Shown: positions 44,195 through 64,000 of the stretch, piece after piece | Position numbering within the stretch: position 1 is the first letter of the stretch | Layout: each line of letters begins with the position of its first letter | NCBI GenBank assembly: GCA_029938115.1 | Contig: JAPYOP010000001.1 | Span: 62,001-126,000, forward strand | From: Colwellia sp. | Lineage (GTDB): Bacteria; Pseudomonadota; Gammaproteobacteria; Enterobacterales; Alteromonadaceae | Length of the DNA stretch: 64,000 nt | Direction of reading: 5' to 3' | Program-made: the position numbers and the translations under genes | The notes under the pieces: generated by a model | Databases searched by the model: none | What the model was told of the DNA's origin: nothing | What the model saw: the letters and a program-made list of their open reading frames with translations, nothing else

Positions 44195-46330
44195 CTAGTT
44201 CAAATAAGGTAACAAACTGTATTCTTTACCGTATTCAAGCATCTGCTCAGAAAAATCACTTGGGTAGCTAATTTTCACATCAATAATTTTACCACCTTGC
44301 TCTCCACCTTCATAAATGGCTTCTAGTTTAGGATTAATAAAACCAGAATAAGGCGCTAAGTTAAGCTTTTTATAACGCTCAATAACTTCCTTGTGCAACT
44401 CTTCATCAACGTTAACGGCATAACCTTCAATGAGTGCTTGACCCGCAGCAAAGTCGCCTTCTGATTTAATACGTTGTAACTCACGTAACAAATCACCAAA
44501 TAAGGTGCGCAGTTTTTGATAATCATTGACAACAAAATAGGTTTTTTCATCACGAACACGCTTTTCGATTACATTATCTTTAGCGCCTTTCTCGAACACC
44601 CAGCTAGCAATTAGCTGACGGTTACGCATATGTGCTTCCTCAATATGTTCACCCAACTTTAAGCGACGAAGTTGTTGCATCATACCGTTGCGAATGTAGC
44701 TATCGTAACTGGCTTTACCTACTTCAAGGCTTGGCATAACGCCCATATCAATGAGTTTTTGATCCATTAAATAATACAAGGCAACTAAATCAGCACGACC
44801 TTCTTCTAAAGCAGAAGAGTATTGCTTTAATGTTTCTTTTGGTGTGCCAACACCTTCGTTGATTTGACCTGAAGCATGACCAATCACTTCGTGTAAATCT
44901 GTGTGCAAGTGCGAAGCTAATGGGCCAAATTCTTTAGCACGTTTCATTTCAGCTTCGTCCCAAGCAAACTCACCTAATGAACCGCCTTTTACGTGGTCAT
45001 AAGCCTCAACTATGTTGGTTAAACTCACTGACTTTGAACCATGCTCAGCACGGATCCAATTGGCGTTAGGTAGATTAATACCGATAGGTGTTGATGGAGA
45101 GGCATCGCCAGATTCAACAACAACCGTAATGGCTTTACCTGTAATACCTTTTACTTCTTTTTTCTTATGAGATTCAACAAGTGGTGAATTATCTTCAAAC
45201 CATTGTGCTTGTAGGGCAATAGCGGCAATAACCTTTGTCGCTTGATGATCTTTCACCGATACTACCGACTCAAATGAACCGCGATAAGCTAACGGATCAT
45301 CGTAAACTTCAATAAAACCGTTTACGACATCGACGTCAGAATTAATATCTTTTACCCACTCAATATTATAAGCATCAAAGTCAGCTAAATCACCGCTACG
45401 GTAATATTTAGCTAATAGCTCAAGTGTCTTTTGCTGTTGCTCATTTTCAGCAACCATTGAAGCTTTATCTAACCAATAAGCAATTTTGGTAATGGCATTG
45501 CCATACATACCGTCAGCTTTGTAAATTTGTTCAACTAGTTTGCCATCAACTTTGGTTAGTTTAGAATTTAATCCCCAAGAAACAGGACGCTTATCATCCT
45601 TGTTAGTTTTTGCTTTGTAAAAGGCTTCAACTTCTGCCTCTGTTACGCCCTCATAATAATTCACCGCAGAGGCAACTACATTGTCAATATCAGCAGATTG
45701 GTCAACCATTTTAGGGGCTATGCTTTTATCAAAAATTATTGGTGTTAACTGAGCAATTAGTTGCTCAGTAGTTTGTTTTATACCATTGGTATTGTGAAGT
45801 GGTAACTTACCTTGTTCTGCAACTGAGTTAATATATTCAGCAAAGCTAGATTGGCTAAACTCAGGCTGAATTTTGGCTGACATATAATGATGATGAATTC
45901 CGTTTGAGAACCAAACACGTTTGGTGTATTCAGCAAATTTAGTGAACTCTTCAGTTGTTTTATCACCTTGATAACCTGTCATCACGGCTTCTAAAGTATG
46001 ACGAATGGTTAGGTTATATTTATAGTTTTGATCCCAAGTCATATCGCGACCAGATAGCGCTGCTTCATATAAATAATAAAGAAGTTCTTTGGTTTCTAGT
46101 GGTAACTCGTTAAAACCAGGAACTTGATAGCGTAATACGCGAATATCAGCGAAACGTTCAGCTTCCCATTTGAATTCACTTACTTGTTTTTCACTTGTTG
46201 ATTTGTGATCAACACTTACTTCTTGTTTAGTTTGTGTGTCAGTTGTTTTTTGTTGCTCTGAACAGGCTGTAATAGCTAAAGAAAAACTCACAGCTAAAGC
46301 AATTTTGCTTGGCTTCTTATTGAATATCAT
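44195..46330 (-). CDS. M49 (dipeptidyl-peptidase III-like) lipoprotein
   Basis: Zinc metallopeptidase of family M49, which releases dipeptides from peptide N-termini. The lipoprotein signal is ALAVSFSLAITAC (Cys23). The zinc and catalytic motif is HEVIGH (the family's HExxGH), with the second-zinc-ligand segment EEGRAD about 40 residues later. Length 711 is normal for the family. Being membrane-anchored outside the cytoplasm, it would trim oligopeptides from extracellular proteins. It is divergent from the collagenase gene across a 237-base gap holding the ATTGTATACATT palindrome, so both may be co-regulated. Confidence 0.88.
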   Translation of the reverse strand: MIFNKKPSKIALAVSFSLAITACSEQQKTTDTQTKQEVSVDHKSTSEKQVSEFKWEAERFADIRVLRYQVPGFNELPLETKELLYYLYEAALSGRDMTWDQNYKYNLTIRHTLEAVMTGYQGDKTTEEFTKFAEYTKRVWFSNGIHHHYMSAKIQPEFSQSSFAEYINSVAEQGKLPLHNTNGIKQTTEQLIAQLTPIIFDKSIAPKMVDQSADIDNVVASAVNYYEGVTEAEVEAFYKAKTNKDDKRPVSWGLNSKLTKVDGKLVEQIYKADGMYGNAITKIAYWLDKASMVAENEQQQKTLELLAKYYRSGDLADFDAYNIEWVKDINSDVDVVNGFIEVYDDPLAYRGSFESVVSVKDHQATKVIAAIALQAQWFEDNSPLVESHKKKEVKGITGKAITVVVESGDASPSTPIGINLPNANWIRAEHGSKSVSLTNIVEAYDHVKGGSLGEFAWDEAEMKRAKEFGPLASHLHTDLHEVIGHASGQINEGVGTPKETLKQYSSALEEGRADLVALYYLMDQKLIDMGVMPSLEVGKASYDSYIRNGMMQQLRRLKLGEHIEEAHMRNRQLIASWVFEKGAKDNVIEKRVRDEKTYFVVNDYQKLRTLFGDLLRELQRIKSEGDFAAGQALIEGYAVNVDEELHKEVIERYKKLNLAPYSGFINPKLEAIYEGGEQGGKIIDVKISYPSDFSEQMLEYGKEYSLLPYLN

Positions 46331-46505
46331 TTTGACGTTCCGATTTTATATTAGTTTTATTATCAATAGATTTAATTATTGCGGGCAATAATTTTAACTA
46401 GAAAAGGTTAACAGTTTGCTAGGGCAAGATATACGAGAGAAAACAAATAAGGTGTTTATTTATGAAAGAGCCTTGAAGGTAATTCGTTTTCCTGAAATTT
46501 ATCGC

Positions 46506-46535
46506 TTGAAAAGTAAATGTATATTGTATACATTT
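46506..46535 (+). promoter_or_regulatory. Collagenase promoter with GntR-type palindrome
   Basis: AAATGTATA (46515-46523), TTG, TATACATTT (46527-46535) form a perfect 9-3-9 palindrome. It contains ATTGTATACATT, one base from the ATTGTATACAAT site at 61,202. A TTGAAA at 46506 and TATACA at 46527 could be -35 and -10, so a bound regulator would cover the promoter. Confidence 0.6.
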
Positions 46536-46567
46536 GCGCTCTCAATAACTCACCTAATTAATTTTAA

Positions 46568-48583
46568 ATGAAAAATAAGAAATCACTTTTATTAATACTG
46601 CTATCGGTAATAATCACAGGTGCTTGTAACGACACCACCATAAAAGGTAACTCAACTGAGCAGAGTAGTAATTCAGTTCAGTATGTAAAATCTAAAGCCG
46701 TGCAATCACTACTCGACATTGATCTTGAAGTACTTTGGAGTCAAGATTTTGATCACCATCAAGAACAACTGCTTTTACAGGTCAGTCAGGCAATTTCTGA
46801 GCTAACAAAAAAAGGTAACTTGGCTGATACTGATCTAGAAAGATTGACTTTCTATTTACGCATCTACTCAAGTTTTGGACCAGATAGAGATTGGGCAGAA
46901 CAAACATCACAAGCGTTGAATAATGCACTGATCAGCTTGCAGGCTATGCCAGGCTTTTATCAAATAACACCAACAACGGCTCGTTTGCATGAAAACTATG
47001 CAGTAGCGCTTTATCGTTTGTATTTCCTCGAGCCATTACGCTTATTAACTATTGATCATATAGAGCCACTAACAAAGTTAATTGAGTTATATGCCAATAA
47101 TGATTTGATACAGGACAATGAAAACAAAAAGAGCAAAGCTGTTGATTATGCACTGTGGGAAATTCTTCGTGCTAGTGCTATTTTGCCCTATGAAGCGGCA
47201 CGAAAAAATAAAGCGGAGCACCTTGCAGTATTCACTCACAAAGATACTCTCGCTCTATCTTTACTTGCTTTTATTGAAAGTGAAAATGCAACTATTGATG
47301 GTGACGATTGGCCAAAAAAACATGCTACTTGGGCGTTAGCGCAATACTATAATGTTTATAATAAGCAATATTCAAATACTTATTATGAGAAAAGTGAAAC
47401 AGAGCAAAAGCAACTTGATGATGATGAAATAACCTTGCCTGTTCAACAAAAAATGACGGATTTAGATAATTCGTTGTGGCAAGCGCTTGCAAATTCACTA
47501 GCCGATACTGAGCTAGGCACAAAGTCAGATGTTGAGGTAGATAAAAAAGTACTTAAAACGCTCTTTAGCGTGCCTTATATTGTTAGTACTTTTCGTGGAA
47601 AGTCTGAATGTGAAGAAGGAAGTTTAAAAGATCGCTGTATTGAACCAACAATAGAGGAAGCGACACCAATTAAACATGCTTGCTCTGATAGTTTATTCAT
47701 TCGAACGCAAAAAATGACTGTAGCGCAGTTAGAAGACTCTTGCCGCCAGTTGATTTCACAAGAAACTATTTTTCACGAAAAACTAGCCACTAAACGTCAA
47801 CCAGCAGCAAATGACTTCAATGATAAACTTCGCGTTGTGGTATTTAACAATGCCGCGGAATACAACAAATATGGTCAGTTGGTTTTTGATATTAGCACTG
47901 ATAATGGCGGTATGTATATTGAAGGCACCACACAAGACCCTGACAACTTGGCGACTTTTTATTCTTATGAGCATTTTTGGGTTCGCCCTAAATTTCAAGT
48001 ATGGAATCTAAATCATGAGTATGTCCATTATCTTGATGGTCGTTTTATAAAATACGATACCTTTAATCACTTCCCCAGCCATCTAGTATGGTGGTCTGAA
48101 GGGCTTGCTGAATATATTTCTAAAGGGGATAGTAATCCAAGGACGTTTAAATTTATTAATGAAACAGAGCAAGAAAAATGGCTAACCCTGCAACAAGTTT
48201 TTGATACAGAGTACCATGATGGTACAGATCAAGTTTATAAATGGGGCTATTTAGCTGTGCGTTTTATGTATGAAAAACATGTCGATGAATACCGTCAGTT
48301 GGCTTATTTTTTGAAAACAGACTTTTTTGATGGTTATAAAAAATTACTTGATGACAGTGGCGAGAAATATGAGAAAGAATTCAATAAATGGTTAGTTGGA
48401 CTTAACACTACTTTTGTTGATGTTAGTGTTGAAAATAATCCGCATAAGCCAAGACAGTTTTATCGTTATTCTTACAAAGGCTATTTGCAGCCTGTACACT
48501 TAACTGAGACGCTGCAACATATGCATTGGCAGTATTGGCATTCGAATGCACTAAAAGGTCAAGAAAGTATTGCTAAGAAGTGA
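46568..48583 (+). CDS. M9-family collagenase lipoprotein
   Basis: Zinc metallopeptidase related to Vibrio/Clostridium collagenases. The lipoprotein signal is LLLILLSVIITGAC (Cys20). A helical activator-like N-terminal half (about 60-370) is followed by a catalytic domain with HEYVHYLDGR (HExxH) and, about 30 residues on, EGLAEYI supplying the glutamate ligand. No PKD or collagen-binding domains follow; the protein ends shortly after the peptidase domain at 671 residues. Anchored on the cell surface or in the periplasm, it would cut collagen or gelatin near the cell. The hydroxyproline genes downstream support collagen as substrate. Confidence 0.87.
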   Translation: MKNKKSLLLILLSVIITGACNDTTIKGNSTEQSSNSVQYVKSKAVQSLLDIDLEVLWSQDFDHHQEQLLLQVSQAISELTKKGNLADTDLERLTFYLRIYSSFGPDRDWAEQTSQALNNALISLQAMPGFYQITPTTARLHENYAVALYRLYFLEPLRLLTIDHIEPLTKLIELYANNDLIQDNENKKSKAVDYALWEILRASAILPYEAARKNKAEHLAVFTHKDTLALSLLAFIESENATIDGDDWPKKHATWALAQYYNVYNKQYSNTYYEKSETEQKQLDDDEITLPVQQKMTDLDNSLWQALANSLADTELGTKSDVEVDKKVLKTLFSVPYIVSTFRGKSECEEGSLKDRCIEPTIEEATPIKHACSDSLFIRTQKMTVAQLEDSCRQLISQETIFHEKLATKRQPAANDFNDKLRVVVFNNAAEYNKYGQLVFDISTDNGGMYIEGTTQDPDNLATFYSYEHFWVRPKFQVWNLNHEYVHYLDGRFIKYDTFNHFPSHLVWWSEGLAEYISKGDSNPRTFKFINETEQEKWLTLQQVFDTEYHDGTDQVYKWGYLAVRFMYEKHVDEYRQLAYFLKTDFFDGYKKLLDDSGEKYEKEFNKWLVGLNTTFVDVSVENNPHKPRQFYRYSYKGYLQPVHLTETLQHMHWQYWHSNALKGQESIAKK

Positions 48584-48620
48584 TTATTGTTGAAAATCTG
48601 AGCCTAAAGCATTAAATAAG

Positions 48621-48647
48621 CGCATTTATATTTTTATAAATGCGTTA
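48621..48647 (+). terminator. Terminator-like hairpin after the collagenase gene
   Basis: CGCATTTATA / TATAAATGCG, perfect 10-bp stem with TTTT loop, followed by TTATTA. T-tract is weak. Confidence 0.55.
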
Positions 48648-48740
48648 TTAATACAGCTTAGTTATTCTTGAATGAATACAGAGCGGCATAATACAATTAC
48701 ATGACTATGCATCTAGCTCAGGAATATGGTTTAAATCCCT

Positions 48741-48790
48741 TGTAGGGGGTAATTTATTGCCCTTTTTGTCAGACTGAAGTCTAACCTACA
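48741..48790. repeat. Family A intergenic repeat, copy 6
   Basis: TGTAGG (48741-48746) pairs with CCTACA (48785-48790). Inner stems are GGG/CCC and AGACT-GA-AGTCT. The three-stem layout is as in copy 1. Confidence 0.6.
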
Positions 48791-48834
48791 CGAGATATTG
48801 CCAATTTGATTTGTGCATCCTGAGTCATCTACAA

Positions 48835-49782
48835 TTATGATATTTTTTTATACACCAAATAAGCAGCTACCAAATCACTAATCGCAGTACCAACCGATTT
48901 AAACAGGGTTATCTCGTCTGCTGATTGTCTTAATATTTCAGGTTGTTTACACATATCTGCCAACTCGGCAATAATATCATCAGCATTAAAAACACCTTCT
49001 TCAATCGGAATTAATAACTCACCTGCTTCATTTAAGGTGTTGGTTAAGCTATCAACAAATACACGTGCGTTGGTAACAGTAATGCTGTCACATTCTCTCG
49101 CATTAACCATGTGATTGCCTAAGCAATCTATATGACAACCTTTACTCACTGATTCTCCGTTAAACAAAGGTGTTTTAGCGCCAGTGGCGCAGCAGATGAT
49201 ATCAATATGGGGAATTTCTTGGGTAACATCTAAACTGGTGTAAAAGCTGATATTAGGATAAATAGCGCTAAATTCGTTAATTAATTTCTGAACTTTTATT
49301 GCGCTTCGACCCCAAATAGTTATTTTTTTCAAGTGACGTACACTAATGTGCGCATGTAATAAATAAGCCGCTAAATTTCCTGTGCCAAATAACATTAGAT
49401 GCTGGCTATCTTCTCGTGATAATAACTGGCTAGCTAATGCTGAAATTGCGGCAGTGCGCCAGTAAGTGACACTTGTGCCATCAACTAGTGCTAATGGTTC
49501 ACCTGTTTCACGGCGAAATAACATGATTTTAGAAAACAAACCGGGTAAGTCATGCTTAGCAGAATTGTTGGGGAAATAGGTAAACATCTTATTGCCGATT
49601 ACTTCATCATTCCAAGAAGGTAGTAAAGCAAAAGCATCATGATTGTCGCTATTTTCAGGCGCAAGAGAATGAACCTGTCGTTGCGGCATATGAAAGGGTT
49701 TACTAAAGCTTTTTTTGAGCAAGGGAATTAATTCTGCAAAATTTAAGCTGCTTTGTACTTGTTCGGTGTTAATAATTTTCAT
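48835..49782 (-). CDS. Ornithine cyclodeaminase/mu-crystallin family, probable pyrroline-2-carboxylate reductase
   Basis: 315-residue NAD(P)-dependent enzyme with Rossmann motif LFGTGNLAAYLL, DGTSVTYWRTAAISALAS and C-terminal LFKSVGTAISDLVAA. In hydroxyproline-using bacteria members of this family reduce delta-1-pyrroline-2-carboxylate to L-proline. Here the gene is in one strand-wise group with a trans-3-hydroxyproline dehydratase (51000-52103), which makes exactly that substrate. Reductase function is therefore inferred from context; true ornithine cyclodeaminase activity is the alternative. Confidence 0.8.
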   Translation of the reverse strand: MKIINTEQVQSSLNFAELIPLLKKSFSKPFHMPQRQVHSLAPENSDNHDAFALLPSWNDEVIGNKMFTYFPNNSAKHDLPGLFSKIMLFRRETGEPLALVDGTSVTYWRTAAISALASQLLSREDSQHLMLFGTGNLAAYLLHAHISVRHLKKITIWGRSAIKVQKLINEFSAIYPNISFYTSLDVTQEIPHIDIICCATGAKTPLFNGESVSKGCHIDCLGNHMVNARECDSITVTNARVFVDSLTNTLNEAGELLIPIEEGVFNADDIIAELADMCKQPEILRQSADEITLFKSVGTAISDLVAAYLVYKKIS

Positions 49783-49822
49783 GGCTGTCTCTGTTTAATA
49801 ATATGACTTGTTTGAATTGGAC

Positions 49823-50905
49823 TTACAGTTCAATCAATTCTTTAGGTGATTGCGTTAATATTTCTAGGCCGTGCTCTGTCAGTACCACATCGTCTTCAAT
49901 GCGGACTCCACCCCACTCAGGAATATAAATGCCAGGCTCTATGGTGATAACGCAGCCTTGTTCAATACTAGTTTCACAATCAGGTCCAATAAATGGTAGT
50001 TCGTGTAATTGCAAACCAACACCATGACCTAAGCCTTCACCTGCGTATTTTTTATATTCACTGCTTAGTAAAATATTGGCTGACTGTTGATATAGCTGTT
50101 CGCCACTTACTCCTTCTATTAGCGCATCTATGGCGGCTTGTTGAGCGTCTTTCACTAATTGATAAATAGCTCGCTGCTTAGCATTGGCTTGACCAAAAAC
50201 AAAGGTACGGGTCATATCTGATCGATAACCGTTCACCACAGCACCAAAATCAATTAAGATCAAATCACCTTGCTTAAGGGCACGGTCTGAAGGAATACCG
50301 TGAGGTAGAGCACTACGTTCACCAAACCCTAAAATAGTAGCAAAAGATAATTCTTCTGAGCCCAATTTTGACATTTGATAATCTAACTCATTGGCAAGTT
50401 CTCGCTCTGTTATACCTGCTTTAGCTAAGGGTAAAATATTAGCTAAGGCTTGATCAGCAATTTTAGCCGCTTGTTTGATGTTTGCTATTTCATCTGCTGT
50501 TTTGATCATCCTGAGTTTTTCTACTGTTGCCGTTATCGGAAAGATTTCGGATACAGAAGAAAATTTTGATATCTCTTTTTCCATGTCGTGCCAGTGAGCA
50601 ACATTAATATGCTCACTTTCAAATAATAGTGTTTCACTGTTGTTTTGTTGTAATAATTCAGCAATTAACGCAGCTAATGTTTGATTGGCTCTATCACGAC
50701 ATATTACTTTAAAAGCAATTGCTTGCTCTTTTGCTTGCTCAAAATAACGATAATCTGTAATTAGATAATTAGCCGTGTCTGTGATTAATACAGTCGCAGC
50801 ATGGCCAGAAAATCCGGATAAGTAACGAATGTTAGTATCGCTAAATACAATAAATGCACTTTTCGTTTTGGTTAATACTTGTTGACGTAATGTGTTAATT
50901 TTCAT
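49823..50905 (-). CDS. M24 Xaa-Pro peptidase
   Basis: Metallopeptidase of the pita-bread fold cleaving X-Pro bonds. Metal ligands: the two Asp of DFGAVVNGYRSDMTRTF, His in GEGLGHGVGLQLHE, Glu in ITIEPGIYI and Glu in GVRIEDDVVLTE. An N-terminal creatinase-like domain precedes (about 1-130). Length 360 fits the short Xaa-Pro aminopeptidase/dipeptidase group. It sits between the 3-hydroxyproline genes, where it would release proline and hydroxyproline from collagen-derived peptides. Confidence 0.87.
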   Translation of the reverse strand: MKINTLRQQVLTKTKSAFIVFSDTNIRYLSGFSGHAATVLITDTANYLITDYRYFEQAKEQAIAFKVICRDRANQTLAALIAELLQQNNSETLLFESEHINVAHWHDMEKEISKFSSVSEIFPITATVEKLRMIKTADEIANIKQAAKIADQALANILPLAKAGITERELANELDYQMSKLGSEELSFATILGFGERSALPHGIPSDRALKQGDLILIDFGAVVNGYRSDMTRTFVFGQANAKQRAIYQLVKDAQQAAIDALIEGVSGEQLYQQSANILLSSEYKKYAGEGLGHGVGLQLHELPFIGPDCETSIEQGCVITIEPGIYIPEWGGVRIEDDVVLTEHGLEILTQSPKELIEL

Positions 50906-50997: not shown

Positions 50998-50999
50998 AG

Positions 51000-52103
51000 T
51001 TAGCGTAATAAAAAGCCATGTTTTAGGGGATCATCTTGGTTAATCAACCATTGTGCTTTACCACAAATAAAAGCCTCTCCTGTTACTTGAGCAATAACAG
51101 CATTGTGACTGTTCTGAGCTGTTCCATAGGTAAGTTCTTCAATAGCCTCTACTTTAAATTGGCTACCTAAAATACTCTCAATGGTTATACTTTGTTGTAA
51201 AGGCACTTCATTTTTGGCAACATGTAATGCAATACGACCACTAACGCCACTGCCTGTGGGACTTCGATCTAATTCACCATCAGCAAATATGCAAACGTTT
51301 CGACTGTGAATATCTTCACTTTTAGCGTCATCAATAGCCTTTTCCTCAATGAAAATGACACCATATAAGAAGCTTAAATCTGCTTCAAATGGATGATTGA
51401 TTGTCATCGTTTCGATGATGGACTTTTTGATTTTTCTACCGTAATCAATTAATTGTGCTTGGTGTTTTGGTAATAAAGTTAACCCTAAGTTTGCGGCATT
51501 CACATAAGCATAAAAAGCGCCACCAAACGCAATGTCGAAATGTACTGTGCCAATATCAGCTACTTCAACATGTTGATTTTTGGCCAAGACGAAAGAGGGC
51601 ACTGATTTGAAACTGACCTTAGTCATAATGTTCGGTTTCGAAGGATTATCAGTAAAAGCTTGGGCGATAATTTGGCCGCAAGGAACATCAATAATAACTT
51701 CAGTTATTTTGCCTGTTTGCTTTACCACACCAGATTCAACTGCACATTTTGCTAAAGCAATTACAGCATGGCCGCACATGGTACTGTAACCTTCGTTATG
51801 AATAAAAATAGCACCAAAATGACTATCTGTTCGTTCGGCTTTGGTGATTATGGCACCGTACATATCCGCATGACCACGCGGCTCAAACATTAATGCCCGC
51901 CGTAAAACATCATGGTTTTGTTGGCAATATCGTCTTTTAGCTAAAATAGTCTTGCCTTTAAGCTCAGGAAAACCGCTAGTAATAATACGCAGTGGTTCTC
52001 CCCCTGTATGACATTCAAGGGTATTTATCGTTAGAAAACACGCTTGTTCAGTGTTTGGCTGCCATTGCTCGAATTTTTCAATAGCTGTCTTTTGTCGGTT
52101 CAT
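51000..52103 (-). CDS. trans-3-hydroxy-L-proline dehydratase
   Basis: Proline racemase superfamily enzyme of 367 residues. The first catalytic site is TMCGHAVIAL (Cys). The second is DRSPTGSGVSGR, with Thr where racemases and epimerases have Cys. This Cys/Thr pair is the known mark of trans-3-hydroxyproline dehydratases, which convert trans-3-hydroxy-L-proline (a minor collagen component) to pyrroline-2-carboxylate. Its neighbour at 48835 would reduce that product to proline. It is separated by 6 bases from the upstream peptide transporter gene, so both share a transcript. Confidence 0.88.
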   Translation of the reverse strand: MNRQKTAIEKFEQWQPNTEQACFLTINTLECHTGGEPLRIITSGFPELKGKTILAKRRYCQQNHDVLRRALMFEPRGHADMYGAIITKAERTDSHFGAIFIHNEGYSTMCGHAVIALAKCAVESGVVKQTGKITEVIIDVPCGQIIAQAFTDNPSKPNIMTKVSFKSVPSFVLAKNQHVEVADIGTVHFDIAFGGAFYAYVNAANLGLTLLPKHQAQLIDYGRKIKKSIIETMTINHPFEADLSFLYGVIFIEEKAIDDAKSEDIHSRNVCIFADGELDRSPTGSGVSGRIALHVAKNEVPLQQSITIESILGSQFKVEAIEELTYGTAQNSHNAVIAQVTGEAFICGKAQWLINQDDPLKHGFLLR

Positions 52104-53930: not shown

Positions 53931-53942
53931 ATTGTATAAAGT
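53931..53942. promoter_or_regulatory. GntR-type operator-like site before the peptide transporter gene
   Basis: ATTGTATAAAGT matches the 61,202 palindrome ATTGTATACAAT at 10 of 12 positions. It lies in the 155-base region upstream of the transporter start at 53882 (reverse strand). Weak alone; notable because three other sites precede related genes. Confidence 0.4.
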
Positions 53943-55105: not shown

Positions 55106-55512
55106 GGCAATAATCTTGAATCTACAATGGCAGCCTCTCTATGCCCTATAACTTTCTGGTATTGAGGGTCAGATGCAAAAGAAATAAAATTGGCGAGTGA
55201 TTTTTGTTTTATTATCATCATAAAATCCCACCTTTCTTCCATAGGTCCAATGAAAAAGTGATCACATTCGCCAAGTAATATAACTTGCCCACCACTTTTT
55301 TCTAAAAAGGGTAACGTTTGATCAATATATACTTGGTAAGCCTCTTTTCCGGTTCTTGGGTATTTAGGTGCTATTTCAGGAAAGTTACCATAGTCTGCAA
55401 TCTCTTTAAAACGAAGCAAATTAAGCATAATAACTTCACCTTGTATTGATTTTGAAAATAGCTGCCTTGCTGATTCGTCACTTGGGTTTAAGTAGTTAGT
55501 TGGCATGCTCAT
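55078..55512 (-). CDS. DUF1330-type ferredoxin-fold protein with altered C-terminus
   Basis: 144 residues. The core is a dimeric alpha-beta barrel of the DUF1330 kind (VIMLNLLRFKEIADY, YQVYIDQTLPFLEKSGGQVI, WDFMMIIKQKSLANFISFA, EAAIVDSRLL). The last residues, PTQATSSLL, are encoded by DNA that in another frame is TonB receptor sequence, so the natural C-terminus seems to have been replaced at a deletion junction. The start ATG 55512 has AAGGAT upstream. Enzymatic role unknown; related folds are monooxygenases or stress proteins. Confidence 0.7.
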   Translation of the reverse strand: MSMPTNYLNPSDESARQLFSKSIQGEVIMLNLLRFKEIADYGNFPEIAPKYPRTGKEAYQVYIDQTLPFLEKSGGQVILLGECDHFFIGPMEERWDFMMIIKQKSLANFISFASDPQYQKVIGHREAAIVDSRLLPTQATSSLL

Positions 55513-55874: not shown

Positions 55875-56786
55875 ATGAACCCTATCTATAAACAAAGAAT
55901 TTTAGCTGCGCTCGACTATATTGAGTCAAACTTAGCTCAGCCACTTAACTTAGATTTGATATCAAACCATTGTCATTTTTCACCGTTTCACTTCCATCGA
56001 GTTTTCAGTGGCGTTATGAATGAAACGTTGAACAGTTATGTAGGGCGAAAACGACTAGAAAAAGCCGTTAATTTATTAGTCTTTAGAAGGGAGCTTAATA
56101 TTACAAACATTGCGTTCGATTGTGGCTTCTCTTCCAGCGCTAACTTTTCAAAAGCGGTTAAAAAATATTTTGGCTATAGTCCTACAGAAATTCGCTCACC
56201 AAAACATGATGAGTTGCCAAGTTTAGGTGATATTTTTAGTAAATATGGCAAAAAATTCAATCCGAATGAGTTATATCCTACGGCAATAGACCCAATGTTG
56301 GAAAACGAGCATAAAATAAGTGTTGAAGTTAAGACGATAGGGCAAAAACGATTATGTAAGCTAGTATCACAAGGTGGCTATGAACCAGAGTCATTATTTG
56401 AAACGTGGGATACGTTGAGCCATTGGGCTGAACGTCAAGGCATACCCGAGGCGTCGCAATATAGGTTAGCTTGGTGTTTTGACAATCCGGCACTTACACC
56501 TGCTAATAAGTGCCGATATGAAGCATCAATAGAAATTGATAGCAAGATAGATGTTATTGAACCGTTCAGTATAATAAATTTACCAGAGGGAAAATATGCC
56601 GTGATATATGTTAAAGGCTCTCCCTATGATATAACTCAAGCACAAATATATTTGTTCAGTTTTTGGTTACCAAATAGTGGTTATGAACCAGATAACTTAC
56701 CCATGCTAGAGCGTTATTTAAATGACGTTAGAGTCGATGGCTTCCTAGAGTCAGAAATTATGATTAAGTTGAAAGTGCTAAGTTAA
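55875..56786 (+). CDS. AraC-family regulator with GyrI-like effector domain
   Basis: 303 residues. The N-terminal AraC DNA-binding domain has two helix-turn-helix units (LDLISNHCHFSPFHFHRVFS and ITNIAFDCGFSSSANFSKA, then KKYFGYSPTEIR). The C-terminal half is a GyrI-like small-molecule-binding domain (VEVKTIGQKRLCKLVSQGGY, LPEGKYAVIYVKGSPYDITQ). This is the Rob/SoxS-adjacent architecture often controlling drug or stress responses. The start is ATG 55875. It lies between the DUF1330 gene (divergent) and the GntR gene. A direct role in hydroxyproline use is not indicated. Confidence 0.88.
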   Translation: MNPIYKQRILAALDYIESNLAQPLNLDLISNHCHFSPFHFHRVFSGVMNETLNSYVGRKRLEKAVNLLVFRRELNITNIAFDCGFSSSANFSKAVKKYFGYSPTEIRSPKHDELPSLGDIFSKYGKKFNPNELYPTAIDPMLENEHKISVEVKTIGQKRLCKLVSQGGYEPESLFETWDTLSHWAERQGIPEASQYRLAWCFDNPALTPANKCRYEASIEIDSKIDVIEPFSIINLPEGKYAVIYVKGSPYDITQAQIYLFSFWLPNSGYEPDNLPMLERYLNDVRVDGFLESEIMIKLKVLS

Positions 56787-56813: not shown

Positions 56814-57482
56814 TTAAGCGTTACTCGCTTCTCGCTGTACTAAAAATGCTTTGATTTCATCACGAGAACTTAGGATATGTTGTTTTAATTTCGCAACAGC
56901 ATTGTTAGTATCTCGTGCCTGACAAAAAGCTAAAAGCTCTGCATGTTCAGGACCTGCTTTTGAAATACCGCCAGCCCATAATAAATGCATACGAATATAG
57001 CGGTCGGCATTTTTGTTTAGAATATTAACTAAATCTGCTGTTTGAGGGCGTTTTGCCCCAGAGTATAAACAGTTATGAAATTCAGAGTTTAACTCACTCC
57101 AAGTATTGGCTGCATTCTCTTTACCTAAGGCACTGTCAAGGTTTGCAAGAATATCGGCTGCTTGAGCAAGGGCATCATCAGTAATATCCACTAATGAAGC
57201 GGCTAGTAAATCCCCTTCAATCATTGCTCTTAGTTCAAATAACTCATCTACTTGATCAAGATTAAGCTCGGTAGCACTCGCACCTTTATGGGGCTCAAAT
57301 GAAACTAAACCTTCAGCTTCAAGTTGCAATAAAGCTTCCCTAACAGGAATTCGGCTAACATTTAACTCTTCGGCTAAAGCGGCTTGGCGTAATGGTTGTC
57401 CGGCAACAATTTCACCGCTAAGTATCTTTTCTCTTAATATTTCAACAACTAACTGTGTTCTGGTTTTATATTCTATTACCAT
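56814..57482 (-). CDS. GntR/FCD-family regulator, probable hydroxyproline regulator
   Basis: Winged-helix GntR N-terminus (VVEILREKILSGEIVAGQPL, LAEELNVSRIPVREALLQLE) and a helical FCD ligand domain with metal-type ligand positions (ELRAMIEGDLLAA, NSEFHNCLYSG, HAELLAFC). The frame opens at 57536, but ATG 57482 (MVIEYKTRTQL) is the usual GntR start. The upstream part would overlap the operator-like ATTTTATACAAT at 57511-57522. It sits directly beside the hydroxyproline operon. GntR/FCD proteins commonly bind TTGTATACAA-type palindromes, like those found before four units here. About 222 residues. Confidence 0.87.
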   Translation of the reverse strand: MVIEYKTRTQLVVEILREKILSGEIVAGQPLRQAALAEELNVSRIPVREALLQLEAEGLVSFEPHKGASATELNLDQVDELFELRAMIEGDLLAASLVDITDDALAQAADILANLDSALGKENAANTWSELNSEFHNCLYSGAKRPQTADLVNILNKNADRYIRMHLLWAGGISKAGPEHAELLAFCQARDTNNAVAKLKQHILSSRDEIKAFLVQREASNA

Positions 57483-57510
57483 TGTATTTTGCCATATATT
57501 ACGATTGCTT

Positions 57511-57522
57511 ATTTTATACAAT
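57511..57522. promoter_or_regulatory. GntR-type operator-like site before gntR
   Basis: ATTTTATACAAT differs by one base from ATTGTATACAAT. It lies about 30 bases upstream of the preferred gntR start, a position suiting autoregulation. Confidence 0.45.
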
Positions 57523-57545
57523 CTATTATAAGGCAATTAACAATG

Positions 57546-57612: not shown

Positions 57613-59157
57613 TTAGGTTTGTAATGCTTTTGGCAGCAAAGCCTGAGGCATATTTTGATAACAAATAGGGCGTTGAAAACGTTTGATTGCTTCGCTACCA
57701 ACAGATGTAGTTCTGAGGGCTGTTGACGCCGGGAATGGACCGCCATGATTCATAGAAGCACACACTTCAACTCCTGTAGGCATTTGGTTGTAGATTAAAC
57801 GACCAACTTTATGCGCTAATGTTTGCGCTAATGTTGCAGATAAATCTAAATCAGCGTCAAGGGCATGAATACTCGCGGTTAAATTACCCGTTAGCAATTC
57901 TGTTAATTTCATCATTTGGTCAAAATCATCACAACGAACAATTAAAGCACTAAAACCGAATAACTCCTCGTGCAGCTCAGGCGTGTTTTCATAAGTAGCA
58001 AAGTCAGTAGCAAATAACGCGGCTGAACAATCTTGCTCTCTACCGGATAAGCCCATTGCAAGTAACTCAACGCCTGCAACGGCTTTACGAGCTGCAACTG
58101 CATCATTATAAGATTTACACATTGCAGGCGTTAGCATTACGCCGGCAGTTTGTTCGCCTAATGATTGTGTTGCTGCGTCAATAAAGGTTTGATAATTACT
58201 ATTAGACTCTTTTCCTTTTTCACTGCCAATAACAACCCAAAGCCCCGGACTTGTACAAAATTGTCCTTGCCCCATCACTAAAGAGCCGACTAAACCTTGC
58301 GCTATAGCTTGAGTATCTTGTGCTAATTTTTCTGGCATAACATACTGAGGGTTAATGCTGCCCAGTTCACCATAAAAAGGAATTGGCTCAGGACGTTGAT
58401 TCATTTGTGCTTGTAAAATCATCCCCACACGTTCAGAGCCGGTAAAACCAATAGCTTTAACTTTTGGATGCGTTACTATTTGGCTGGCTACTGTATATTT
58501 TTTTCCTTGAATAAGTGAAAAAACACCTTTGTCGATATCGCAAATTTCAATGGCTGCTAATATGGCTTGGGCAACTAGTTCTGCTGTCGCTGGGTGAGCC
58601 GCATGGGCTTTCATTACGACAGGACAACCTGCAGCAAGCGCTGAAGCGGTATCACCACCAGCGGTTGAAAATGCCAAAGGAAAGTTACTCGCGGCAAATA
58701 CGCCCACTACACCTAAAGGTAAATATCCTAAGCGAGTATCTGGTTTTGGTAATGGTTGACGATCATTATCAGCTAAGTCAATAACAGCTTGGTATTCACC
58801 ACTTTCTAATAAGTTGGCAAATAAACCGAGTTGATTAACGGTACGACCTCGCTCGCCTTGAATTCGCATGGCAGGTAAACCCGTTTCAGCACAGGCTGTT
58901 TCAATTAACTCATCACCAAGGGCATTGATTTGATCGCCAATAGTACGTAAAAATTGAGCACGTTTTTCAGGGATAAGTTGGCTGTATGAAGCAAAAGCCT
59001 CATTAGCGCGGTTAATAGCCGTGTTAACTTCAATTTCTGTGGCATCTGCAAAAGTCGTGCTCATCGCTTGATGACTTTGAGCGTCAAAGGCAGTAAAGCC
59101 ATTGGTCGTTTCGCCAGTCCACTGACCCGCGATTAAATTTTTACCTGTGATAGTCAT
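57613..59157 (-). CDS. 2-oxoglutarate semialdehyde dehydrogenase
   Basis: NAD(P)-dependent aldehyde dehydrogenase of 514 residues. Catalytic Cys is in GQGQFCTSPG, the general-base Glu in FYGELGSINP, the cofactor loop in GFTGSERVGM, and ASNFPLAFSTAGGD near the N-terminus. The sequence is of the alpha-ketoglutarate semialdehyde (2,5-dioxovalerate) dehydrogenase type. In this operon it would perform the last step of trans-4-hydroxyproline catabolism, giving 2-oxoglutarate. Gap to the upstream epimerase gene is 23 bases. Confidence 0.88.
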   Translation of the reverse strand: MTITGKNLIAGQWTGETTNGFTAFDAQSHQAMSTTFADATEIEVNTAINRANEAFASYSQLIPEKRAQFLRTIGDQINALGDELIETACAETGLPAMRIQGERGRTVNQLGLFANLLESGEYQAVIDLADNDRQPLPKPDTRLGYLPLGVVGVFAASNFPLAFSTAGGDTASALAAGCPVVMKAHAAHPATAELVAQAILAAIEICDIDKGVFSLIQGKKYTVASQIVTHPKVKAIGFTGSERVGMILQAQMNQRPEPIPFYGELGSINPQYVMPEKLAQDTQAIAQGLVGSLVMGQGQFCTSPGLWVVIGSEKGKESNSNYQTFIDAATQSLGEQTAGVMLTPAMCKSYNDAVAARKAVAGVELLAMGLSGREQDCSAALFATDFATYENTPELHEELFGFSALIVRCDDFDQMMKLTELLTGNLTASIHALDADLDLSATLAQTLAHKVGRLIYNQMPTGVEVCASMNHGGPFPASTALRTTSVGSEAIKRFQRPICYQNMPQALLPKALQT

Positions 59158-59180
59158 ATTTCTTCCTAATATAAAATTTA

Positions 59181-60194
59181 TTACTTAACGACAAAGCCAA
59201 AGGCGTATGGATCATCGTCATCAATGGTGATGCAGTTTTTACCAAAAACTCGCGCCCAACCTTCAATACTTGGCATGATGGCTGGTATATTTCCAGTAGC
59301 AGAATGTAACTCTATTACTTGTTCAATTTTTCCGACAAACTGGCTACCGATATAGCTTTCGTGCACAAAACGATCGCCAAGTTTCAATTCTCCTCTAGCG
59401 TACAGTTGAGCCATTCTAGCGCTAGTACCCGTACCACAAGGGGATCTATCGATGGCTTTATCGCCATAAAATACTGCGTTGGCAGCATCAGAGTCTTGAG
59501 TTTGAGGTTTTCCTGTCCATAACACGTGAGAAATACCATTAACACTTGCATCGTTTGGATGAATACAAGTGAGTGCTTTATTGGCAGCATTTCGCACAAT
59601 CGAACTCCAGTGCAGAATTTTTTCAGATGACCATTGGTCAATGCCGGGAAAGTTTTCCTGTGGTTCAACAATGACATAAAAATTACCACCGTAAGAAACA
59701 TCTACTTTTAAGCAGCCAAGAACTGGAATAGTTAACATGACATCACGGTGAGCTAAATAAGAAGCCACATTAAAAATTTTAACGGCCGTAATTTTTTCAT
59801 CTTGCTGTTGATATTCAACCGAAATCTGCCCTGCAGGAACATCAATAGTTAACTTGCCCTGGATTTGGGGGGTTAATAAGCCATTTTCGAGAGCAGCTGT
59901 AATCGCACCAATGGTGCCGTGACCACACATTGGTAAACAGCCAGATGTTTCAATAAAAAGGATTGATGCATCGCTACCTTTGCTACAAGGTGGATATAAA
60001 AAGGCGCCAGACATCATGTCATGACCACGAGGTTCAAACATTAAACCTTGACGGATCCAGTCATAGTTTTCCATGAAATCAAGCCGTTTATCACTCATGG
60101 TTTTTCCCTTTAAATTAGGGTGACCACTAGTGACTAAACGAACAGGATTTCCGCAGGTGTGGGCATCAAAACAGAAGAACGTGCCTTTAATCAT
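59181..60194 (-). CDS. 4-hydroxyproline 2-epimerase
   Basis: Proline racemase superfamily protein of 337 residues with both catalytic Cys: LPMCGHGTIGAI and DRSPCGTGTSARMAQL. The Cys/Cys pair separates it from the Cys/Thr dehydratase at 51000. Such enzymes interconvert trans-4-hydroxy-L-proline and cis-4-hydroxy-D-proline, the first step of the pathway. CFDAHTCGNPVRLVTSGHPN at the N-terminus is typical. It is flanked by the deaminase (32 bases upstream) and the semialdehyde dehydrogenase, matching known hydroxyproline operons. Proline racemase activity is the main alternative but context argues against it. Confidence 0.9.
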   Translation of the reverse strand: MIKGTFFCFDAHTCGNPVRLVTSGHPNLKGKTMSDKRLDFMENYDWIRQGLMFEPRGHDMMSGAFLYPPCSKGSDASILFIETSGCLPMCGHGTIGAITAALENGLLTPQIQGKLTIDVPAGQISVEYQQQDEKITAVKIFNVASYLAHRDVMLTIPVLGCLKVDVSYGGNFYVIVEPQENFPGIDQWSSEKILHWSSIVRNAANKALTCIHPNDASVNGISHVLWTGKPQTQDSDAANAVFYGDKAIDRSPCGTGTSARMAQLYARGELKLGDRFVHESYIGSQFVGKIEQVIELHSATGNIPAIMPSIEGWARVFGKNCITIDDDDPYAFGFVVK

Positions 60195-60225
60195 AGCTGT
60201 GATTATCCATTAGAATCGCGTGTTA

Positions 60226-61140
60226 TTAATCAAGGTTAAATTTGCTCAAATTGATACGATTGTCATTGGCTTCGTTGAAAATTCGCTCAACGTTTTTACG
60301 CTCTTCTCCTATTAATGGCATGCGTGGTGCGCGAGTTAATTCACTACCCCGACCTGCAAGTTGCTCACATAATTTAATGCATTGCACCAGTTTTGGCACA
60401 GTGTCTAAACGTAATAATGGCAAAAACCAGCGCCAAATTTCTAAGGCTTCAACATAGCGGCCTTGTTTGGCTAGTTGATATATAGCGACAGACTCTTTTG
60501 GAAAAACATTGGTTAAGCCCGAAATCCAACCAGTACAACCTAGCATCAAAGATTCGAGGGCAATGTCATCAACGCCGCCAAAAATAATAAAACGATCACC
60601 AAAAGCAGAGTAAAGTTCAGAAATACGTCGGGTATCTTCAGTCGCTTCTTTAATGGAGACAATATTCTTTTCTGCGGCAAGCATTTTCATGCCTTCTATG
60701 CCAACATCTACACCGTAAGTTACGGGGTTGTTGTAGATCATAATTGGCAAGTTACAGTTACGCGCAATTTGTTGGTAATGATGAATTGCCTCGCTTTCAT
60801 CTGATTTGTAAATCATGCCAGGAAGTACCATTAACCCGTCAATGCCTACTTCTTCACAAGCTTGAGAGAATTCAATAGCAAATTGTGTTGATGTTTCAGC
60901 CACACCAGAAAGCACAGGTACACGACCAGCAACCACTTCTTTAACTGCTTTTAAAATAGCTATTTTTTCTGTACAGGTATGCGAGGCATTTTCGCCTACT
61001 GTGCCTAAGGCGATGATGCCATCAACCCCTTCATTAATGATGGTATCAATCATTTTTTGTGTGGCTGCAAAATTAATAGATAAGTCATCGTTGTATTGGG
61101 TGGTTACTGCGGGGTAAACACCTTGCCAGTTTACAGTCAT
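60226..61140 (-). CDS. 1-pyrroline-4-hydroxy-2-carboxylate deaminase
   Basis: Class I aldolase-like (DapA/NAL superfamily) lyase of 304 residues. Schiff-base Lys is in VSIKEATEDT, the conserved Tyr in IMIYNNPVTYG, and the phosphate-loop-like GTVGENASHT near the N-terminus. In hydroxyproline operons this family deaminates 1-pyrroline-4-hydroxy-2-carboxylate to 2-oxoglutarate semialdehyde. A dihydrodipicolinate synthase role is unlikely here. First gene of the reverse operon, divergent from the D-hydroxyproline dehydrogenase gene; the perfect palindrome at 61200 lies between the two. Confidence 0.88.
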   Translation of the reverse strand: MTVNWQGVYPAVTTQYNDDLSINFAATQKMIDTIINEGVDGIIALGTVGENASHTCTEKIAILKAVKEVVAGRVPVLSGVAETSTQFAIEFSQACEEVGIDGLMVLPGMIYKSDESEAIHHYQQIARNCNLPIMIYNNPVTYGVDVGIEGMKMLAAEKNIVSIKEATEDTRRISELYSAFGDRFIIFGGVDDIALESLMLGCTGWISGLTNVFPKESVAIYQLAKQGRYVEALEIWRWFLPLLRLDTVPKLVQCIKLCEQLAGRGSELTRAPRMPLIGEERKNVERIFNEANDNRINLSKFNLD

Positions 61141-61199
61141 AAAATTCTCATTTCCAAAAAGTTAAAAGCTAGTAAAAGTATCACTAGTAAGAGTTGGGT

Positions 61200-61215
61200 A
61201 TATTGTATACAATAT
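61200..61215. promoter_or_regulatory. Perfect 16-bp GntR-type operator in the divergent hydroxyproline promoter
   Basis: ATATTGTATACAATAT is a perfect palindrome, 60 bases before the deaminase gene (reverse) and 75 before the dehydrogenase gene (forward). It is the best instance of the motif also seen near 46523, 53931 and 57511. Confidence 0.7.
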
Positions 61216-61289
61216 TATTTCTGTTGCAAGTAATAAGTTAATACTTAGTATGTCTAATAGTTAATCTATTGGTTAATAAGGTAAAATAA

Positions 61290-62594
61290 ATGTTATTGAA
61301 ACAAGGTGCTCCCTTAAATGAGGCTTTAGGTGCTAAAAAAGTTGCGGTAATTGGCGCAGGTATTGTTGGAGTAAATTGTGCCTTAGCACTACAAATGGCC
61401 GGTTATCAAGTTACTTTAATAGATAAGCAAGGCATTGGTGAAGGCTGTTCTAAAGCTAATGCTGGACATTTTGCCACTGAGCAAGTTTTTCCACTTGGTG
61501 ATCCATCCTTGCTATTAGCATTACCGAAAATGTTACTGGATCCATTAGGACCAATAGCACTTTCACCAAAGCATTTTTTTAAGGCTATTCCTTGGTTTAT
61601 GCAGTTTTTTAATAATATGCGTAAGAACAAAAGAGTAAGTAATAGTGCAGCAATTAAAGCGTTGAATAAGCATGCTATTGAATACTATAAGCCATTATTG
61701 CAAGCAGCGAATGCTGAACATTTGTTAATTAGCAAAGGCTCCTTATTGGTGTTTGAAAAAACAAAACATAGTGATGTTATGGCAATACATCAGCATTATC
61801 AGCAAGCAGGCATAAAAGTTAAGTTATTAAATAGAGCACAAGTCTTAGACGTAGAGCCTAATTTACATGCCAACATAAACTATGCATTATTTTTTACTGA
61901 AGTTGCACACACAGGTAATCCCTCTCACATTTGCATTACTCTGGCTGATTACGCAAAAAGTTTAGGCATGGTGTATCAGCAATCAGCGGTTGAGAGTATA
62001 AACCAAAATATATCCTCAATTGTTGTAAGCACCACGACTGAACAGTTAAGGTTTGATCAATGTGTTGTCGCTACGGGGGCTTGGTCAAAAAACTTGTTAA
62101 AAGGGCTTGGGTATTCACTGCCCATTGAAGCAGAGCGGGGTTATAGCCTAAGTTTGGCGTTGGGGAAAAATGAACAACCACTACTGTCTCGACCGGTAGC
62201 ATCGGCAGAGCGAAAATTCATCATTACGCCTATGGAAAATATGCTGAGATTATCAGGCACGGTTGAATATGCAGGGCTAGATGCAAAAGCAAATAATAAG
62301 CGCGCAGATTTGTTGTTAAAAAATGCAGAGTCAGTGCTGAGTAAATTACCAGAACCAGTATCTGCAAATAATAATGAAAAGAATGAGCGTTGGATGGGGT
62401 GTCGTCCTTCATTACCCGATTCATTACCCGTGATCTGCCAAGCGCCACATCACGATAAAGTGTTTTTTGCTTTAGGGCATCAACATTTAGGACTAACCCA
62501 AGGCGCAATTACCGGAAAATTAATTGAGCAACTGGTGAGTAAACAAACGACAGATATAGATGTTACCCCCTTTTGCATAAGTCGGTTTAATTAA
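61290..62594 (+). CDS. FAD-dependent D-hydroxyproline dehydrogenase (DadA-like)
   Basis: 434-residue flavoprotein with an N-terminal FAD-binding Rossmann motif (KVAVIGAGIVGVNCALAL, then MAGYQVTLIDKQ) and a C-terminal GHQHLGLTQGAITGKLI, as in D-amino acid dehydrogenases. In the trans-4-hydroxyproline pathway such an enzyme oxidises cis-4-hydroxy-D-proline, made by the epimerase, to 1-pyrroline-4-hydroxy-2-carboxylate and feeds electrons to the respiratory chain. The start is ATG 61290; TAAGGTAAAAT upstream is a modest ribosome site. Divergent from the rest of the pathway across a shared operator. Confidence 0.87.
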   Translation: MLLKQGAPLNEALGAKKVAVIGAGIVGVNCALALQMAGYQVTLIDKQGIGEGCSKANAGHFATEQVFPLGDPSLLLALPKMLLDPLGPIALSPKHFFKAIPWFMQFFNNMRKNKRVSNSAAIKALNKHAIEYYKPLLQAANAEHLLISKGSLLVFEKTKHSDVMAIHQHYQQAGIKVKLLNRAQVLDVEPNLHANINYALFFTEVAHTGNPSHICITLADYAKSLGMVYQQSAVESINQNISSIVVSTTTEQLRFDQCVVATGAWSKNLLKGLGYSLPIEAERGYSLSLALGKNEQPLLSRPVASAERKFIITPMENMLRLSGTVEYAGLDAKANNKRADLLLKNAESVLSKLPEPVSANNNEKNERWMGCRPSLPDSLPVICQAPHHDKVFFALGHQHLGLTQGAITGKLIEQLVSKQTTDIDVTPFCISRFN

Positions 62595-62712
62595 TCCTGC
62601 CATTATTCAGTTCATGGCGCACAATTTGCTTTCATTTATGATAAGAAATAAACAGCATGCTAGTGTCAATATTTTACCGAATTATTGACACCTTTGTTTG
62701 AAGGAAATCATA

Positions 62713-62967
62713 ATGCCAGTAAAAGATGAAGCTATCATGAAAAGTATCCAAAACCTTTCATTGTCCTTGTCAACAGCACAGTTAGATCAATTTGTCACCG
62801 TAATCGAATCACTGGCAGATTTATTACAAACAGCGAATAAAGATACTGAAAAAGCTTATCGAATGTATTTAAATTCTATTCAATCATCACAAGAACAAAC
62901 TTATATAAACGCGCAAACTGCTTCTGTTTATTACGACACAACCAATGTTGTGCCACTTAAACATTAA
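62713..62967 (+). CDS. Small conserved-looking protein of unknown function
   Basis: 84 residues from ATG 62713, 5 bases after AAGGAAATC. Predicted helical, with an amphipathic Leu/Ser-rich first half (IMKSIQNLSLSLSTAQLDQF) and a polar C-terminus. No Cys, no membrane segment, no recognised domain. It lies between the D-hydroxyproline dehydrogenase and a convergent M24 peptidase gene, 118 bases after the former. The good ribosome site supports it as a real gene. Function unknown. Confidence 0.5.
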   Translation: MPVKDEAIMKSIQNLSLSLSTAQLDQFVTVIESLADLLQTANKDTEKAYRMYLNSIQSSQEQTYINAQTASVYYDTTNVVPLKH

Positions 62968-62980
62968 AAGAAAATGTCGT

Positions 62981-64000
62981 TTAAACCTCTAAACCAAAAG
63001 GATCATCTACAGAGTATGACGGCTCAGTAAACCATATTGGCCCATGTTCCCCCATGTAGAAATGATCTTCTAATCGGATACCAAATTTTTGCACAATGAC
63101 TAGCATTGGTTCATTACTAAATGCCATGCCGGTTGCTAGCGGTGTTTTATTGCCGCGTAGTAAATAAGGCCACTCATGAATATCTAAACCACAACCGTGA
63201 CCTGTTCTATGGGGTAATCCCGGCAAATTGTAATCAGGACCGTAGCCATTCTCAGTGATCACTGCACGGGCAGCATCATCAACAGCACTACAGGGAGAAT
63301 TTAATTGAGCAGCAGCAAAACCAGCAGCTTGTGCATCTTTCTCAACTTGCCATGCAATCCGCTGTTCATCGGTTGCCTCACCGTAAGCATAAGTGCGGGT
63401 GATATCAGAATTATAACCGTGCAGTAAACAGCCGGTATCAATCAACACCCAGTCGTTATCTTGCAAGATTTGTGGGTCTTTAACGCCATGAGGATATGAG
63501 GTCGCTATTCCAAAGAGTACAATGCAAAAAGAAGAGCCTGATGCGCCAACACATTTATGGGCTTCATGAATAAAGTTAGTTACTTCAATTGTGCTAATTC
63601 CTGGACGTAATATACGCGCTGCCGCTTTATGCACTTCTATTGTCATGTCTTTAGCCCGTTGCATCAAGGCTATTTCAACGCTTGATTTAATTTGGCGACA
63701 AGGGGCTGAAATGTCAGCGCCGTTACTAAATTCAAATGTCGGAGCAGTTTTACGCAGACCATCAAAAATAAAAAAAGCTGCTGACTCATCAATAGCCACT
63801 TTACCTTGAGTAAATCCCATTTTAGTTAATACGTTAGCGAAGAGCTGGTAAGGACTTTCATCTTCATGCCAGCCATTATAATTTCCTTGAATGAGCATGT
63901 TATCGCGTAGTGAACTTTCTTCAAAATGTGGGGCAATAAATTCTAAATCGCCATCAACGGGTAGAATTGCTCCAACCATTCGTTCTGATTTATACCATTT
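62981..64000 (-). CDS. M24 creatinase/Xaa-Pro dipeptidase-like hydrolase, 5' end outside the window
   Basis: The reading frame continues past the right edge (KWYKSER precedes the first Met at 63979), so the N-terminus is cut off. M24 metal ligands are present: the two Asp of DTGCLLHGYNSDITRTY, His in TGHGCGLDIHEWPYL, Glu in FSNEPMLVI and Glu in IRLEDHFYM. A partial creatinase-like N-terminal domain precedes them. This is a second M24 protein in the island, distinct from the one at 49823. An Xaa-Pro or Xaa-Hyp dipeptidase role fits the context; creatinase- or ectoine-hydrolase-like activity is an alternative. Confidence 0.83.
   Translation of the reverse strand, partial: KWYKSERMVGAILPVDGDLEFIAPHFEESSLRDNMLIQGNYNGWHEDESPYQLFANVLTKMGFTQGKVAIDESAAFFIFDGLRKTAPTFEFSNGADISAPCRQIKSSVEIALMQRAKDMTIEVHKAAARILRPGISTIEVTNFIHEAHKCVGASGSSFCIVLFGIATSYPHGVKDPQILQDNDWVLIDTGCLLHGYNSDITRTYAYGEATDEQRIAWQVEKDAQAAGFAAAQLNSPCSAVDDAARAVITENGYGPDYNLPGLPHRTGHGCGLDIHEWPYLLRGNKTPLATGMAFSNEPMLVIVQKFGIRLEDHFYMGEHGPIWFTEPSYSVDDPFGLEV

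Follow-up and report, generated by a model that had tools for sequence, protein, structure and literature searches.

A 64,000-nucleotide stretch of Colwellia sp. DNA (contig JAPYOP010000001.1, positions 62,001 to 126,000; hereafter the window) carries, from position 44,195 to its end, a group of genes that we interpret with high confidence as a HypR-controlled cluster for the utilisation of collagen and hydroxyproline. The host is a Colwellia-type marine bacterium, and the window sits on a 178,810-base contig of a draft genome of 5.2 Mb in 278 contigs. An initial annotation made from these letters had proposed a complete, self-contained and by implication novel system running from a surface collagenase to 2-oxoglutarate. 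Every gene that it named lies where it had been placed, each with a family match, and its central proposal, that a surface collagenase is linked to both hydroxyproline branches, is supported by a recurrent arrangement and a shared operator; the completeness and the novelty did not hold up. The cluster type is already published for Colwellia, and the window holds a variant of it.

The collagenase gene (46,568–48,583, forward strand) encodes an M9 lipoprotein that matches the Pfam M9 profile with 264 bits, the match covering only the peptidase part (residues 360–608) with its HExxH motif (HEYVH at residue 483). Beside it lies a gene for an M49 dipeptidyl-peptidase III-like lipoprotein (44,195–46,330, reverse strand; Pfam M49 154.7 bits, and 731 bits to 5na7, a putative dipeptidyl-peptidase III), in which the motifs HEVIGH and EEGRAD were recognised by eye, as was an N-terminal lipobox in both proteins. 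A structure model of the M9 protein built from 32 sequences (mean pLDDT 85.4, pTM 0.83) has an entirely helical N-terminal half followed by the peptidase half, and all 15 Foldseek matches to it at E ≤ 0.001 are collagenases, headed by 8jt1, 7wss and 7esi. The closest of these are Grimontia and Vibrio collagenase units, with 8jt1 aligned over 592 columns at a TM score of 0.59 by target length and a root-mean-square deviation of 9.5. The model points to a helical activator domain ahead of the peptidase domain, although at that deviation their arrangement relative to each other is uncertain, and the protein as modelled would be an activator-plus-peptidase unit on a lipid anchor. The view suggested by Pfam coverage, a bare peptidase domain, is ruled out by the model and its Foldseek matches. 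The Pfam scan detected neither a PKD nor a collagen-binding domain in this protein, which favours a reading in which M9 and M49 are general surface proteases that share HypR control and do not have collagen as their main substrate; the fold match, however, spans both the activator and the peptidase domains of collagenases, and we regard that reading as improbable. A weak second M9 match (32.8 bits) occurs elsewhere in the genome, on contig C13.

Four genes on the reverse strand follow the collagenase. The first encodes a Delta1-pyrroline-2-carboxylate reductase (48,835–49,782), which scores 402 bits against PRK06141 and passes its cut-off of 322, and the second an M24 Xaa-Pro peptidase of YpdF/PepQ-like type (49,823–50,905; Pfam M24 and Creatinase_N), whose top NCBIfam names lie under their cut-offs. 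The third (51,000–52,103) belongs to the proline-racemase family, and its Cys110 and Thr283 align with the Cys/Thr active-site pair of human trans-3-hydroxyproline dehydratase (7qpo), while its closest structural-sequence match is 6r76, labelled a proline racemase. Because its best match, the trans-3-hydroxy-L-proline dehydratase equivalog NF045511, reaches 358.8 bits against a cut-off of 540, we call this protein dehydratase-like rather than a full member. The fourth gene (52,110–53,882) encodes an MFS/POT-like transporter, probably an oligopeptide importer, with a best POT subfamily match of 111.1 bits under a cut-off of 130.2.

The genes of the trans-4-hydroxyproline branch lie farther along the window. 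An aldehyde dehydrogenase resembling alpha-ketoglutarate semialdehyde dehydrogenase (57,613–59,157, reverse strand) falls under the curated cut-off and matches 3v4c and 1eyy with more than 420 bits. The neighbouring 4-hydroxyproline 2-epimerase (59,181–60,194, reverse strand) scores 573.5 bits against PRK13971 (cut-off 376) and has a Cys/Cys pair, Cys90 and Cys253, both of which align with those of the Trypanosoma proline racemase. For the DHDPS-like enzyme (60,226–61,140, reverse strand), the top NCBIfam match is dapA with 194.4 bits, under the cut-off of 206.15, so the presumed deaminase role draws on gene context. The divergent DAO-like D-amino-acid dehydrogenase (61,290–62,594, forward strand) is, by family and context, a probable D-hydroxyproline dehydrogenase. 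A second M24 gene (62,981–64,000, reverse strand) continues past the window to a start near window-equivalent 64,138 and resembles the prolidases 5cik and 4r60 (385 bits). The initial annotation had not mentioned that this gene runs past the window, nor had it mentioned a GntR/FCD regulator, an AraC/GyrI gene, a DUF1330 gene and a truncated TonB receptor.

From this gene content we infer the substrates and localisation of the products, the identity of the regulator and the mode of induction. Collagen would be cut at the cell surface by the lipid-anchored two-domain M9 enzyme and the peptides trimmed by the lipid-anchored M49 peptidase, after which the POT-like carrier and the two M24 Xaa-Pro peptidases would supply free imino acids in the cytoplasm. 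There, trans-4-hydroxyproline would pass through the epimerase, D-hydroxyproline dehydrogenase, deaminase and semialdehyde dehydrogenase to 2-oxoglutarate, and trans-3-hydroxyproline would be converted by the dehydratase and the reductase to proline. The GntR/FCD protein, a putative HypR, would bind the sites described below before the collagenase gene, its own gene, the deaminase/dehydrogenase pair and the second prolidase gene.

The pairing of M9 with proline-racemase-family genes recurs across genomes. Among 61 genomes searched, 37 are of this genus, and 23 of these hold both families, one holds M9 only, none holds a racemase-family gene only and 13 hold neither. The M9-only genome of the genus (G005) has its M9 match, on contig C44 (stretch L031), interrupted by stop codons. 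Across 395 genomes of the family, in counts that include weak matches, both occur in 95, M9 only in 19, the racemase family only in 19 and neither in 262. The two lie no more than 20 kb apart in at least 27 of the 95 genomes with both, compared with about 3.3 expected from random independent placement, and the adjacency that the initial annotation proposed to check at this distance is accordingly not confined to the present genome. The M9 protein next to the locus varies, being a lipoprotein of 650–710 residues, a short form of about 320 residues or a longer protein.

A palindromic 10-mer, TTGTATACAA, regarded as a HypR-like operator, would connect these genes to one regulator. At no more than one mismatch it occurs 35 bp upstream of the collagenase gene (TTGTATACAT, 46,524–46,533), before the GntR gene (TTTTATACAA, 57,512–57,521), and in the divergent DHDPS/DAO promoter, where it is exact (61,203–61,212); beyond the window, a further exact copy stands at window-equivalent 64,212, between the second M24 gene and an AlkB-like gene (name by eye). 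The GntR/FCD gene (56,814–57,536, reverse strand; family match) has a likely start near 57,482, which puts its operator-like site just upstream, and a GntR-family regulator is here encoded with hyp genes, as in HypR regulons. A long form of the operator, TATATTGTATRCA, has four occurrences in the 5.2-Mb genome, three of them in the island, and its reversed control has none. The sole long-form operator outside the island (L213:1501-1513, G000:C94:80394) precedes a gene for a PD40/DPPIV_N-like protein, a possible regulon member. Other exact 10-mer sites occur on contig C15 by a LysR-like and a small DUF1330-like gene, on C128 between 2-hydroxy-acid-oxidase-like and oxaloacetate-decarboxylase-like genes, and on C210 by a glycosidase-like gene (all names by eye); no TonB receptor lies beside these three sites within 3-kb stretches, a search of exact 10-mers that would miss one-mismatch sites.

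The operator is retained before orthologous lipoprotein collagenases irrespective of their neighbourhood. We compared 23 loci, 21 of them M9 matches with open frames of 654–707 residues and two (G348, G247) from the family set, and found the 10-mer at no more than one mismatch within 100 bp upstream of the collagenase in 22; the exception, L103, carries a site with two mismatches, recognised by eye. Each of 19 permuted palindromes with the same half-site composition occurred at 0 or 1 of the 23 loci. Hydroxyproline or reductase genes are present on the stretch read in six loci (the window's own, L065, L066, L068, L075 and L103). The other 17 show no hydroxyproline gene over stretches that extend no more than 1.7 to 15.7 kb from the collagenase on each side, and all 17 have the operator. 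In the genomes concerned, the racemase-family genes are located on different contigs or at a distance of hundreds of kb, and short contigs in G001, G004, G007 and G035 may hide linkage. These 17 loci would favour the view that a peptidase pair and a hydroxyproline operon came to lie together by chance, but the operator precedes precisely these unlinked collagenases, and the number of genomes with both families within 20 kb far exceeds that expected at random. Recurrence and operator conservation rule out a chance neighbourhood for practical purposes, and we assign it a very small probability. In a wider set, the best 80 of 157 M9 relatives in GTDB genomes (Colwellia, Thalassotalea, Pseudoalteromonas, Shewanella, Ferrimonas, Kangiellaceae and others, several overlapping the 23), the site occurs in 66, between 260 bp upstream of and 60 bp inside the matched start, whereas permuted palindromes reach at most 6 of the 80. 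The operator precedes only 7 of 533 other open reading frames of at least 250 residues, genes or not, in the same 80 loci.

Several features of this system have precedents, and the novelty implied by the initial annotation is not sustained. A 21-kb collagen-utilisation cluster was published in 2021 for the Colwellia metagenome-assembled genome BB5, with similar ones in C. piezophila and C. psychrerythraea GAB14E (Borchert et al., 2021; PMC7883544). The core described there is found together in the window: M9, D-hydroxyproline dehydrogenase, epimerase, alpha-ketoglutarate semialdehyde dehydrogenase, MFS transporter, aminopeptidase, pyrroline reductase and hydroxyproline dipeptidase. The BB5 collagenase is of the same lipoprotein class and 74% identical to that of the window, and the two loci also share an M24 peptidase, the deaminase and the GntR gene. 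They differ in that the window has an M49 gene beside M9, with no M49 match on BB5 stretch L156, and a trans-3-hydroxyproline dehydratase-like gene, with no match on BB5 stretches L068 and L156, the BB5 genome (G021) having one racemase-family gene. In BB5 the transporter match is split into two pieces that overlap and there is no dehydratase-like gene (L068:10132-12100, L156:15134-15720), and the BB5 cluster may be damaged or misassembled. BB5 further has an intact TonB receptor, an extra outside the published core, and a secreted cyclophilin-type peptidyl-prolyl isomerase, given there as part of the conserved core; the window lacks both, the isomerase having no match in the island at E ≤ 1. 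Because the isomerase is also unmatched in stretches L069 and L070, from C. piezophila and GAB14E, whose clusters are counted as conserved in that publication, it is doubtful as a defining feature. C. piezophila ATCC BAA-637 (G023) and C. psychrerythraea GAB14E (G015) have the same hydroxyproline, transporter and M24 core with M9 nearby, but the adjacent M9 is the short form of about 320 residues, 35–36% identical over the match, and the lipoprotein orthologue is on another contig. At the Colwellia hydroxyproline loci L069–L072, this short M9 lies beside the second M24 gene, and no operator was recognised by eye in the 150 bp upstream.

The regulatory link likewise has forerunners. A HypR regulon predicted for Alteromonadales in 2016 (Leyn et al., 2016; PMC5343134) resembles the present system: alongside a GntR regulator and hyp catabolic genes, it takes in secreted collagenases, a TonB receptor, a peptide permease, prolidases and a gene of the ornithine-cyclodeaminase family. 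That report places the collagenases mostly in Shewanella, in which HypR is also listed elsewhere (PMC3223726), and its main text gives no operator letters. In the actinobacterium Streptomyces coelicolor, a GntR-type HypR represses, besides hyp genes, a gene for a putative M9 collagenase (SCO5912) located outside the SCO6289-93 cluster, and L-hydroxyproline induces its targets (PMC6608401); the S. coelicolor M9 protein has M9_N, PKD and PPC domains, whereas that of the window has none of these by Pfam and has a lipobox. Collagenases and hydroxyproline degradation have also been linked at the community level in oyster Vibrio (PMC12542681). We found no description of operator conservation on unlinked Colwellia collagenases or of the truncated receptor in the open-licence literature, in so far as it was accessible, and claim no novelty for either.

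The window departs from its relatives between the GntR and transporter genes. In five relatives' loci (L065, L066, L068, L073 and L102) this interval holds full TonB receptors of 903–1001 residues, which fall into three dissimilar types (25–35% identity over parts) and have exact operators 77–110 bp upstream. In the window, family matching and comparison with relatives reveal only about 350 C-terminal residues (54,038–55,080, reverse strand), corresponding to residues 603–953 of another receptor at 39% identity; the N-terminus is missing and there is no plug domain in the fragment. The fragment directly adjoins a DUF1330 gene (55,078–55,512, reverse strand; Pfam 24.3 bits, cut-off 23), beyond which lies an AraC/GyrI-like regulator gene recognised by family match (55,875–56,786, forward strand), and both are probably parts of an insert. 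For the DUF1330 gene, 60 compared stretches of relatives yielded no match at E ≤ 1e-10, and in six other loci (about 1.5 kb of flank) it is not next to AraC. At E ≤ 1e-30, 34 of 36 other genus genomes show nothing that matches the AraC gene, and the remaining two have a match of 28%; its closest match, at 53%, is in another family, and the gene is apparently foreign to the genus. A presumed replacement would have taken away the promoter and the initial ~600 residues of the receptor. The same truncation could stem from an assembly error, as might be suspected in a draft of so many contigs, but the junction lies well inside a long contig and the DUF1330 and AraC frames beside it are open, which makes an error quite improbable. 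A receptor reduced in this way, together with the 17 same-class collagenases whose stretches, as read, lack hydroxyproline genes, is at odds with a complete, self-contained system. Because the cluster's own TonB receptor is broken, passage across the outer membrane would have to use another receptor or porins.

It might be supposed that the island is decaying, receptor loss having ended collagen use and left genes that serve free hydroxyproline and small peptides. The truncated receptor has no close copy in the genome (next best match 30%), the operator-like site 49 bp upstream of the transporter gene (53,932–53,941) has two mismatches, where L065, L068, L073 and L102 have sites with 0–1 mismatch at 37–50 bp in this position, and a BB5-like secreted cyclophilin is absent. 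On the other hand, island genes other than the receptor are open reading frames without stops, the three long-form operators are retained and further TonB receptors are present elsewhere in the genome. A BB5-like cyclophilin is likewise missing (at a permissive threshold) from five of six other checked loci that have the cluster's lipoprotein M9 or the short form, so that its absence is no sign of decay. We consider decay unlikely and favour a collagen and hydroxyproline utilisation cluster under HypR control.

A number of observations nevertheless weigh against this interpretation. Its receptor is broken and its transporter site imperfect, several of its enzyme names are matches under curated cut-offs, and the counts are uncorrected for relatedness. 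The GntR/FCD protein is no more than a candidate HypR, by family and hyp-gene neighbourhood. Fourteen of the 80 wider M9 relatives are without the site at one mismatch, and the 10-mer is enriched neither in the window (three seen, 5.58 expected) nor in the genome (five exact sites, compared with seven for the reversed control). Being no commoner than its reversed control or shuffles, the 10-mer alone was discarded as genome-wide evidence, and the case for the operator accordingly rests on the long form and on position upstream of orthologues.

Two other regions were noted, with gene names by eye. Past the window (L063:5069-10440), genes for a MocR-like regulator, a nitrilase-family protein and a full TonB receptor of 827 residues form an apparently separate locus, and window positions 18,115–29,725 hold a cytochrome cd1-like gene, a multihaem cytochrome gene and a run of cytochrome c oxidase genes.

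We tentatively suggest that the regulator, not gene order, unites the marine collagen system: one class of lipid-anchored collagenase would keep the operator wherever it is located, and an operator-bearing receptor slot beside the transporter would hold differing TonB receptors by species. In the present strain this slot may have been overwritten by a foreign AraC/DUF1330 segment, leaving a surface collagen digester without a dedicated receptor that may use a shared receptor or feed its neighbours. The broken receptor makes the strain a natural test of the need for a dedicated one. Operators on unlinked collagenases predict that hydroxyproline or its product is the inducing signal. Collagen is a source of carbon and nitrogen in fish waste, bone and whale falls, and a short, specific operator on surface collagenases, even unlinked ones, offers a genomic test for marine bacteria that couple collagen attack to hydroxyproline use.

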